Source of the DNA: an archaeon
Lineage (GTDB): Archaea; Hydrothermarchaeota; Hydrothermarchaeia; JALTZZ01; JALUTC01
Assembly (NCBI GenBank): GCA_027051265.1
Contig: JALTZH010000256.1
Span: forward strand, 1 to 7,837
Length of the DNA: 7,837 nucleotides
Reading direction: 5' to 3'
Shown: in pieces, positions 1,511 to 7,837 of the stretch
How positions within the stretch are numbered: the stretch's first letter is position 1
Layout: every line of letters starts with the position of its first letter
Program-made: the position numbers and the translations under genes
The notes under the pieces: model-generated
Told to the model about the DNA's origin: nothing
Database searches by the model: none
What the model saw: the letters and a program-made list of their open reading frames with translations, nothing else

Positions 1511-1559
1511 ATGATGAAGGAGGTGATCACTGAACAGTGATGATATAGGCAGGAACTGA
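1511..1559 (+). ncRNA. Box C/D guide sRNA 1, with a guide complementary to the 3' end of 16S rRNA
   Basis: All four boxes are present. Box C ATGATGA is at 1511-1517, D' CTGA at 1530-1533, C' GTGATGA at 1537-1543 and D CTGA at 1556-1559. The C-to-D' and C'-to-D spacers are both exactly 12 nt, and D' to C' is 3 nt. This is the compact geometry of archaeal 2'-O-methylation guides, which assemble with L7Ae, Nop5 and fibrillarin. The D' guide (1518-1529, AGGAGGTGATCA) is complementary over 11 bases to GAUCACCUCCU, the conserved 3' end of 16S rRNA. By the D+5 rule it would direct methylation of the C in GAU-C-ACC (E. coli 1533). The D guide (1544-1555, TATAGGCAGGAA) has no target that I recognise. 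No convincing terminal stem flanks the boxes. The RNA starts five bases after the peptidase stop, so it may be processed from that transcript or use a TATA-like stretch near 1469-1477. Confidence 0.88.
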
Positions 1560-5107: not shown

Positions 5108-5160
5108 TGAATGTAACTATCTAACGAAAGCTTAATTAAAATTATTGTAATAAACCTATA

Positions 5161-5345
5161 GGAGATAATTTATCAAACTGTTCTTCTCCCCCGTGCTAAA
5201 GGGTGATGGGTCTTTGCGAGAAGGTTTACAGTGCTCCGATATGGAAAACTGTGGGATGAGTTAGTACCATGTTAAACTTTTTTCTCTCAGCTTCTCTAAA
5301 CCTATTCTGTTGCCAATTCGACTTAGAGGGCTTTATCGAAACGAG
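5161..5345. other. Non-coding block with RNA-like pairing, class unknown
   Basis: This part of the gene-free stretch is visibly richer in G and C than the surrounding spacer and holds several nested complementary segments. CTTCTC (5183-5188) pairs with GAGAAG (5218-5223). ACAGT (5228-5232) pairs with ACTGT (5248-5252), enclosing TCC/GGA. AAGGTTT (5221-5227) can pair with AAACTTT (5274-5280), followed by a T run ending at 5283 that could be a terminator. AGGTTTA (5222-5228) can instead pair with TAAACCT (5297-5303). A ten-pair helix with one bulge joins 5289-5299 and 5323-5332. I could not match it to the RNase P, SRP, tRNA, 5S or H/ACA features that I know. It may be an unassigned structured RNA or decayed sequence; the strand is undecided. 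Confidence 0.35.
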
Positions 5346-5472
5346 GGTTATATTTAAGACATTATAAATATCCTAATATCTATCCTATTAACGAACTTGG
5401 GCTGATTTGCACGAAAGATAGCGAGACAAGATATTACACTCATTTTTGTATAATTATTAATTTTACAGTATA

Positions 5473-5564
5473 TTATATAAACGTTTTGCTTACTGTCGCT
5501 CTTCCAAACCTTTACCAATTCATTCCAGCCTTGAAAAGCGAGGTTTTTTAGCAACGTTTTATAA
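5473..5564. repeat. Long imperfect inverted repeat in the gene-free stretch
   Basis: The left arm TTATATAAACGT (5473-5484) pairs with ACGTTTTATAA (5554-5564) with one bulged T. It continues as TGCT (5487-5490) with AGCA (5550-5553) after a two-base bulge. Further in, TCGCT (5496-5500) pairs with AGCGA (5537-5541) and TTC (5502-5504) with GAA (5533-5535). The whole could fold as a hairpin of about 92 nt, as RNA from either strand. The arm also contains TATA-like sequence in both directions. The bases between this and the previous block (5346-5472) are AT-rich, and I see no gene or clear motif in them. Confidence 0.45.
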
Positions 5565-5582
5565 GAAAAAGTTCTCATAATG

Positions 5583-5589
5583 GTATAAA
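5583..5589 (+). promoter_or_regulatory. Possible TATA box for lonB
   Basis: TATAAAT in GGTATAAATC lies about 70 bases before the lonB ATG and would give a leader of roughly 40-45 bases. The DNA between it and the ATG has no Shine-Dalgarno. Other AT-rich stretches closer to the start could serve equally well, so this is a weak call. Confidence 0.25.
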
Positions 5590-5654
5590 TCTACACAAAA
5601 CTTTATCAGTAAAAGTAGAAGAAATTCATCTGTTAATTAATCCAATATTAATTT

Positions 5655-7837
5655 ATGGAAGAAAAGGAAATAATGCAATTTAAGACAACAGAAGAGATTA
5701 AAGTTCCAGAGAAATTAATAGATCAAGTAATAGGCCAGGATAAAGCTGTTGAAATAATCAAAAAAGCAGTTAAACAAAGACGACACGTTTTACTTATAGG
5801 TGAACCAGGAACAGGAAAATCAATGCTTGCGCAAGCGATGGCCGAGTTGCTACCAACTACAAATCTCGAAGATATTCTTGTATTTCCAAATAACGAAAAC
5901 AAGTATGAACCTATAATCAAAACGGTTCCTGCTGGTGAAGGAGAGAAGATAGTTAAATCCTATCTTGAGAAGAGAAACCAAGCGGAAAGGTTTATAGATT
6001 TCCTGTTTAAAATGTTGTTTATAGCAGTATTTTTAATTACGTTCTTTTACACAATCTTCATGAAAAATCCTCTCGTATTATTTGGAGGTATTATTGCTTC
6101 GGTTTTTCTTTTAATTGGAAGAAGTTATATACGTGTCAAAAATGAAATTTTAGTACCTAAATTGTTAGTAAACAATGCTGGAAGAAAGACTGCTCCTTTT
6201 GTAGATGCTACTGGTCTCCATGCTGGTGCACTCTTTGGAGATTGTAGACATGACCCTTATCAATGCTTTAGGGAAGGAAATTTTATCTTTCTATTTAAGG
6301 ATGAAAAAATAGTACCTGTCGAAATTAAGAAATTCGTTGAAGATATCTTAAAGAAAAATACACATAAAATTCTAAGAAAGAAAGATAGCGAAATATTGAT
6401 TGAAGCAACATATGTAGATGAACCAATATATATTTTGGGATTCAAAAATGGAAAAGTAAGACCTGTTAGAGTATTATCTGTAAATAAAAGAGTAGGAATA
6501 CAAGAAATTTTGAATCTAAATTCTAACGATGTTTGGATTTCTGTAACACCTGAACATATGATTTTTACAAAAGAACTAAAAAAAATGGAAGCAGAAAAGA
6601 TTAATTCCGATATTTTCTTTAGGGTCTTTGACAATATAACAATCTTAACAGAAGATGATTTTATAAAGTCTAAGACAATAGGTCACGATGTTGTAAATGA
6701 TCTAAAAGCGTTAAAACTTTTACCATTAAAACTTTCTGATAGAAGATTAAAAACTATAGCTAGAATTCTTGGAGCAATGTTTAGTAAAAAAGGATATATC
6801 AGTAAGAAAATGGAACGTCTATATTATATCTCTTCAGAAGATGCTATAACAATATTTATAAGAGATTTACAAGAATTGTTTAGGAATTTTTCGTATAAAA
6901 TTAAAAAAATATCCAGCAGCTCCAAAGAGATGTATGTATTTGAAACAACGGATAAAAGAATGATAGGATTTTTTGTAGCCTTAGGTGTACCAGTTGGTAA
7001 AAAGAGAGATTCAATAATAAAGATACCAAACTGGATATTTATTAGAAGAGATTTATTACTATCATTTTTAGATGGATGGATTTCTTCGGATAGTTCTATT
7101 TCAAAATACGTAAAGTTTAAGAACTATCATAAGTTTAAAAATACCGTAGAAATTTCTTTAATATCTTTAATAAATAGATATAGAAAAACAATAAACGAAA
7201 TTAAAAAATTTGTTAAATACCTTAGACTGCTTGGTGTAAATGCAAAGGTTAAGATTAATCGTTATAAAAACTTAGGATATCGGATAAGGATATTAATCTC
7301 AAATAAAAATATCATAAAACTTTTTAACTTGTTGGAAATGAGATATTCCCCAACAAAAAAAGAGGAACTTTTTGATTTTGGATACGAAAGAGATGCTAAG
7401 CAAGTTACATTGTTGTTAAGAAAGCATAACAGTTTTTATAAGATTAAAGAATTTGTTCATGAAACTTATAATATAACAACTGAAACTGGAAATCTTATTG
7501 TTAATGGAGTTTTGGTTAAGAATTCTGGAGGATTAGAAACGCCTCCTCACGAATTAGTTGAAGCTGGTGCTATTCATAAAGCTCATAGAGGTGTTTTATT
7601 CATAGATGAAATTGGAAATCTAACCTATGAGGAACAAATTAAACTCTTAACGATATTACAGGAGAAGAAATTTTCAATTACAGGACAATCTGAAAGGAGT
7701 TTTGGAAGTCTTATTAGAACATCTCCAGCACCATGTGATTTCATACTTGTTGCAGCTGGTAATCCTGAAACTATAAGAAAGCTACATCCAGCACTAAGGG
7801 ATCGAATAAAAGGTTATGGATACGAGGTTTATATGAA
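5655..7837 (+). CDS. lonB: LonB membrane-anchored ATP-dependent protease, 5' part, interrupted by an intein
   Basis: Archaeal LonB is a hexameric AAA+ protease held in the membrane that degrades damaged and regulatory proteins. The visible 727 codons contain N-extein residues 1-203, an intein at 204-623 and C-extein from Ser624. Walker A GEPGTGKS is at 49-56. Two membrane helices, at about 114-136 and 138-156, sit inside the AAA+ domain as is characteristic of LonB. TAPFVDATGLHAGALFGD (179-196) precedes the insertion. After it come Walker B GVLFIDEIGNL (646-656), the sensor-1 stretch LVAAGN, and the HPALRDRIKGYGYEV segment with its arginines. The Ser-Lys protease domain lies past the window edge; the frame is open at 7837. 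The ATG at 5655 gives a normal N-terminus. No Shine-Dalgarno is present. After splicing, 307 residues of the mature protein are encoded here. Identity is secure. Confidence 0.96.
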   Translation, partial: MEEKEIMQFKTTEEIKVPEKLIDQVIGQDKAVEIIKKAVKQRRHVLLIGEPGTGKSMLAQAMAELLPTTNLEDILVFPNNENKYEPIIKTVPAGEGEKIVKSYLEKRNQAERFIDFLFKMLFIAVFLITFFYTIFMKNPLVLFGGIIASVFLLIGRSYIRVKNEILVPKLLVNNAGRKTAPFVDATGLHAGALFGDCRHDPYQCFREGNFIFLFKDEKIVPVEIKKFVEDILKKNTHKILRKKDSEILIEATYVDEPIYILGFKNGKVRPVRVLSVNKRVGIQEILNLNSNDVWISVTPEHMIFTKELKKMEAEKINSDIFFRVFDNITILTEDDFIKSKTIGHDVVNDLKALKLLPLKLSDRRLKTIARILGAMFSKKGYISKKMERLYYISSEDAITIFIRDLQELFRNFSYKIKKISSSSKEMYVFETTDKRMIGFFVALGVPVGKKRDSIIKIPNWIFIRRDLLLSFLDGWISSDSSISKYVKFKNYHKFKNTVEISLISLINRYRKTINEIKKFVKYLRLLGVNAKVKINRYKNLGYRIRILISNKNIIKLFNLLEMRYSPTKKEELFDFGYERDAKQVTLLLRKHNSFYKIKEFVHETYNITTETGNLIVNGVLVKNSGGLETPPHELVEAGAIHKAHRGVLFIDEIGNLTYEEQIKLLTILQEKKFSITGQSERSFGSLIRTSPAPCDFILVAAGNPETIRKLHPALRDRIKGYGYEVYM
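6264..7523 (+). mobile_element. LonB intein (420 residues) with a degenerate LAGLIDADG endonuclease
   Basis: This is an in-frame protein-splicing element. It starts at Cys1 (TGC at 6264, after DPYQ) and ends at Asn420 (AAT at 7521), with Ser as the +1 residue (SGGLETPP). This is the same point in the AAA+ domain as the lon inteins of Thermococcales. Block A begins CFREGN, block B carries TPEH (intein 95-98), and the C-terminal block reads NLIVNGVLVKN. The penultimate residue is Lys, not the usual His, and the usual block F His position appears to be Gly409. The middle section resembles a two-motif LAGLIDADG homing endonuclease. Motif 1 is LGAMFSKKG (intein 169-177), with Lys where the catalytic acid should be. 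Motif 2 is LDGWISSDS (269-277), with its Asp kept. Splicing is expected, since the host protein is otherwise intact; DNA cleavage is doubtful. Confidence 0.93.

Follow-up and report, generated by a model that had tools for sequence, protein, structure and literature searches.

The window analyzed here, that is, the whole stretch of 7,837 nucleotides, contains a gap of 92 bases between a prepilin-peptidase-like gene on the + strand, which ends at 1505, and purC on the − strand (1598–2293). Within this gap lies a short element, AGGAGGTGATCA (1518–1529, + strand), that reads both as the guide of a C/D box sRNA and as a perfect Shine-Dalgarno (SD) sequence covering the anti-SD of 16S rRNA. The question raised by the locus is which RNA this element is aimed at and what its binding would do: direct a methylation, assist folding of the small subunit, interfere with translation, or nothing at all, the likeness being accidental.

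Two C/D box sRNAs next to purC

Based on the sequence and the ORF list, the gap holds two C/D box sRNAs arranged head to tail on the + strand. The first, sRNA 1, spans about 1507–1559 (boxes 1511–1559), as delimited from the sequence, from Rfam and by an automated architecture check that located its four boxes: a C box, ATGATGA (1511–1517), a D' box, CTGA (1530–1533), a C' box, GTGATGA (1537–1543), and a D box, CTGA (1556–1559). The element described above is its D' guide and lies exactly where the initial annotation had placed a C/D guide, between complete boxes; it is followed, after the D' box, by a D'–C' spacer of 3 nt (ACA, 1534–1536), and the D guide is TATAGGCAGGAA (1544–1555). With C, D', C' and D boxes in order and guides of ~12 nt, sRNA 1 is, judged by its sequence, a canonical archaeal C/D box sRNA. 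The earlier remark that the SD-like guide has no usable start codon also held, as the GTG at 1537 and the ATG at 1540 both reach a TAG within three codons.

The second, sRNA 2 (1559–1606, + strand), has its C, D', C' and D boxes at 1559–1565, 1578–1581, 1585–1591 and 1603–1606, a D' guide AGAACTCATGCT (1566–1577) and a D guide TGCCTGCTATG (1592–1602), and its final 9 nt run into the 3' end of purC. The final A of the sRNA 1 D box is the first base of the sRNA 2 C box, so that between 1556 and 1565 CTGA and ATGATGA overlap by one base with no linker. No ordinary terminal stem is thus possible there for either sRNA, and the tandem layout is unusual. Neither sRNA reached the Rfam gathering score of any curated C/D family: sRNA 1 gave sub-threshold matches over 1507–1561 to sR2 (27.3 bits, gathering 42) and sR9 (24.4 bits), and sRNA 2 scored 36.6 bits against snoPyro_CD over 1555–1609, below the gathering score of 45. 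Sub-threshold scores are what would be expected if Rfam had drawn its C/D families from other archaea. These families are per-sRNA, and a family match is supportive of membership in the C/D class, not defining.

Two further features of the window were recorded. A stretch of about 540 bases (5108–5654) has no convincing gene and reaches up to 42% G+C at 5150–5350, compared with 26.5% for the genome; it gave no Rfam match of note and its folding energy was not unusual, and it may be a structural RNA that is undescribed or has diverged. At 5655–7837 is an archaeal LonB protease split at roughly residues 257–584 by an intein-like insert, identified by an NCBIfam intein match.

Pairing of the guides with ribosomal RNA

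The D' guide of sRNA 1 forms 11 contiguous Watson-Crick base pairs with the 16S 3' end (TGGATCACCTCCT) in all eight 16S genes available at the class level, the tail segment concerned being GAUCACCUCCU, and in each of the eight class relatives with a full 16S gene the paired stretch consists of the last bases, GATCACCTCCT. By the N+5 rule, G1525, fifth in the guide counting back from the D' box, stands opposite C1533 (E. coli numbering). The 11-base complementarity that had been reported from the window, and the placing of a predicted methyl on C1533, are thus both confirmed on the 16S rRNA of class relatives. The main text of PMC4644070 takes at least 9 contiguous base pairs to rRNA that include N+5 as the criterion for an archaeal guide, and sRNA 1, with 11 in class relatives' 16S, exceeds it. 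Only 1 of 3000 shuffled guides equalled 11 base pairs in 16S at the N+5 register. Against class 23S the best matches of the D' guide stayed at 6–8 bases, the one longer match in the 23S list (L066) being a 16S end that lies inside that locus. Each of the 30 archaeal 16S genes inspected first, read in both orientations, has GATCACCTCC followed by one variable base at its end. Neither 16S nor 23S is present in the host assembly (1.46 Mb, 257 contigs), and both are also absent from the same-genus and same-order genomes; the target in the host is therefore drawn from relatives.

For the D guide of sRNA 1 the comparison with relatives' 16S and 23S gave at most 7 contiguous base pairs at N+5, which is about chance level, and hence no confident target in class relatives. 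A match to the 16S 5' end (GAUCCUGCC) of 7 contiguous base pairs is near chance level and is not claimed as its target. Separately, the D' guide of sRNA 2 can form 10 Watson-Crick and 2 GU pairs with 23S GGGCGTGAGTTCC of one class relative (G016); the match is weak in other relatives.

Recurrence of the tail guide and its partner guides

The search of related genomes that the initial annotation proposed had a divided outcome, in that the guide recurs across archaeal phyla at one register but, with the patterns used, was found in no other genome of the host class. A scan of a collection of 84,980 genomes with the pattern TGATGA(0-2)GGAGGTGATC(0-3)CTGA returned 18 matches, eight of them archaeal even though archaea make up little of the collection. 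Looser scans gave 18 matches in 17 of 394 archaeal genomes domain-wide (reversed pattern, 0 of 394), matches in 6 of 227 genomes of the Asgard phylum (reversed control, 0) and in 5 of 398 genomes of Thermoproteota (control, 1), while in the host's own phylum (23 genomes) the host was the sole match. With these patterns the guide turned up in no other genome of the host class, so local conservation is lacking; a comparison of locus synteny found purC itself to be absent from the same-genus genome.

Over all scans, 18 distinct matches passed an automated check of the remaining boxes for full C/D architecture, a check that shuffled flanks pass at ~1% and that none of the 10 bacterial matches passed, these lacking C'/D boxes. 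Seventeen of the 18, sRNA 1 with its complete set of boxes among them, share the register AGGTGAT-NN-CTGA, which puts N+5 on C1533, out of four or five registers that the patterns allowed. Some of these are closely related (five from one Pyrococcus-like genus, three Njord-type, two from family f35 and two from f28); nevertheless, they span about nine lineages, and the register therefore looks selected. A register fixed in this way is, on the evidence of these matches, what marks a methylation guide and not an SD mimic. The sole exception (L068, 1432–1481, in G231 of the Asgard phylum) is shifted by two, so that its tail guide predicts methylation of C1535, within the anti-SD itself; its partner guide matches C896 of h27 when relatives' 16S is used. 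A separate observation is that the Njord and Asgard tail-guide sRNAs of L034 and L046 begin shortly after an apparent tRNA 3' end (TTCGAGTCCGCCCCCCGGCGCCA) and may thus be co-transcribed with a tRNA.

In six genomes the tail guide could be paired with the genome's own 16S, over 12 bp in each of G402, G468 and G040, 9 bp in G323, and 8 bp in both G049 and G048, the last being a Pyrococcus-like genome. In G049 (L119, about 1558–1600), the 16S ends in GATCACCTCGG and has an incomplete anti-SD; the tail guide there, CAAAGGTGATCG, pairs only over GATCACCT, up to the changed 16S end. The same genome, of family f35, reads CCGCCUGUC in its 16S and the partner guide carries a matching, compensating A. 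The archaeal metagenome-assembled genomes (MAGs) of the collection scan contain no 16S, which is why the Njord and Heimdall targets rest on relatives' 16S.

The assignable targets of the second guides all lie near the base of the tail. They are C1402 in h44 for sR1 (described below) and the f35 sRNAs, A1408 in h44 for the f28 sRNAs, U912 in h27 for the Njord and Asgard sRNAs and C896 in h27 for that of G231 (both from relatives' 16S), and about C798 in h24 for G402 (own 16S); the sRNAs of G468, G323 and Desulfurococcales had no assignable partner target. Both guides are thus on 16S sites close in the fold in the sR1-like, f35, f28 and G402 sRNAs, as judged from own 16S, and in the Njord sRNAs, as judged from relatives' 16S. 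A chaperone role has been proposed, in the main text of PMC4644070 and also in PMC7994747, for double-guide sRNAs that connect 16S sites lying far apart.

The matches in Thermococcaceae, a family name that rests on Rfam's Pyrococcus families and on the 16S ending, correspond to the D guide of the long-known Pyrococcus sRNA sR1 (Rfam RF01152), with 63.7–66.3 bits against a gathering score of 45. All five g39 genomes searched have a match, and no g18 genome of the same family does. In a Pyrococcus-like genome, compared with its own 16S and 23S, the 16S tail is the best rRNA match of this guide (8 contiguous base pairs; next, 7). Like sRNA 1, sR1 places N+5 on C1533 in the same register (AGGTGATCT-CTGA). 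In sR1, however, it is the D guide that matches the tail, over 8 contiguous base pairs, and the D' guide fits C1402, whereas in sRNA 1 the D' guide matches the tail, over 11, and the partner guide has no confident rRNA target. Its covariance score against RF01152 (17.6 bits, E 0.49, gathering 45) indicates that sRNA 1 is not an sR1 member. For 18S, yeast snR70 and human SNORD43, the snoRNAs for the C1402 equivalent, do what the partner guide of sR1 is predicted to do, but are not known to carry a tail guide; the anti-SD is absent from eukaryotic 18S.

The remark in the initial annotation that it knew of no described guide with this target is accordingly doubtful as a sign of novelty, and the view that no such guide was known is probably wrong: sR1, as read from its sequence, carries one, so that a tail guide is not unprecedented. 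Box anatomy, 12-nt guides, the 3-nt D'–C' spacer, the N+5 rule and the double-guide layout are shared by sRNA 1 with the archaeal C/D box sRNAs described in the main text of Dennis et al. 2015 (PMC4644070), and word searches of that main text found no 16S 3'-tail site. Likewise, among the papers returned by literature searches on the anti-SD and C/D guides, none concerned a tail target.

Structural data are available for Pyrococcus abyssi. In its 30S subunit Cm1376 (= Cm1402) was observed, and the anti-SD duplex AUCACCUCC was built with no tail modification listed (PMC7005279). This model speaks against complete methylation of C1533 in Pyrococcus, but with a weight reduced by how few 2'-O-methyls were modelled in it at all (Am373, Cm1376 and ac4Cm250). 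Given the absence of a listed tail modification, C1533 may be unmethylated in Pyrococcus, whose guide has only 8 bp.

Proposed role of sRNA 1 and its alternatives

We consider it probable that sRNA 1 belongs to a C/D sRNP that would guide methylation of C1533; its binding to the tail may also aid folding of the 30S core. In this mechanism sRNA 1 would be expressed and would assemble with L7Ae, Nop5 and fibrillarin, its D' guide would pair with the single-stranded 16S 3' tail just after helix 45, and 2'-O-methylation would be directed to the ribose of C1533, the C preceding ACCUCC. Binding would probably also draw the tail to the 30S core as the subunit assembles, since the second guides in other archaea often target the h44 decoding-centre strand, h27 or h24. 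The proposed target is supported, strongly by recurrence at one register across phyla and by pairing with own 16S in six genomes; methylation of C1533 is a prediction, and the most likely outcome of that pairing.

It is unlikely that pairing with the tail serves mainly to chaperone folding or assembly by way of a second guide to the decoding-centre region, with C1533 methylation absent or incidental. The convergence of partner guides on h44 (C1402, A1408), h27 (U912, C896) and h24 (about C798), near the tail base, would suit such a role, as would the chaperoning of distant 16S sites by double guides proposed in the main text of PMC4644070 and the P. abyssi structure, which lists no modification in the tail (PMC7005279). 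However, a fixed N+5 register, kept in 17 of 18 cases, is needed by methylation while a chaperone could tolerate shifts, and the second guide of sRNA 1 is without a target.

That the guide is directed at a different RNA, or is an orphan, its SD likeness stemming from the frequency of purine-rich SD sequences, we regard as improbable. GGAGGTGAT does occur as a true SD elsewhere in the host genome, a bacterial record (L042) has the identical 22-mer by chance, without the other boxes, and roughly one in three archaeal C/D sRNAs has no rRNA target according to the main text of PMC4644070. Against this stand the shuffle rate given above and the finding that archaea, unlike bacteria, carry the module repeatedly with its complete C/D architecture.

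The remaining alternative depends on how the host initiates translation. The earlier observation that genes lack an SD is true of the window but not of the genome: in 108 kb of sampled host DNA, 31% of the regions upstream of ORFs reach −7 kcal/mol or better in binding to the anti-SD, compared with 10% in shuffles, and they include GGAGGTGATCATG. As SD sites are used by part of the host genes, the anti-SD is in all probability intact, and the host would pay a price for a guide that blocked it. A nucleotide with a 2'-O-methyl can still base-pair. The suggestions of a maturation check on 16S or protection of its 3' end find no support in these facts, the fixed register fitting methylation instead, nor does that of SD damping or a decoy, which needs no fixed register. 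We therefore think it most improbable that the guide sits on the anti-SD to act as a decoy or damper, or that it protects the mature 3' end, even though it is a perfect SD sequence and about one third of sampled host genes have SD-like upstreams, because register conservation and the partner guides point to rRNA modification and because the Pyrococcus guide is mismatched to the anti-SD core (TAGGTGATC), which makes it a poor SD mimic.

We tentatively raise the possibility, without favoring it, that the tail at C1533 is targeted again and again across Archaea, for methylation or for assembly, by mutually independent double-guide C/D sRNAs that would pair the tail with a single decoding-centre or platform strand (h44, h27 or h24) and so tie it to the 30S core before mRNA binding. 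SD-dependent initiation binds mRNA through the 16S 3' tail, in which the archaeal 30S study lists no modification (PMC7005279). Pyrococcus is culturable and genetics are available in Thermococcales; recurrent guides fixed on one tail nucleotide, in Pyrococcus and in several uncultured phyla, would make both anti-SD-base methylation and chaperoning of the tail by an sRNP directly testable.
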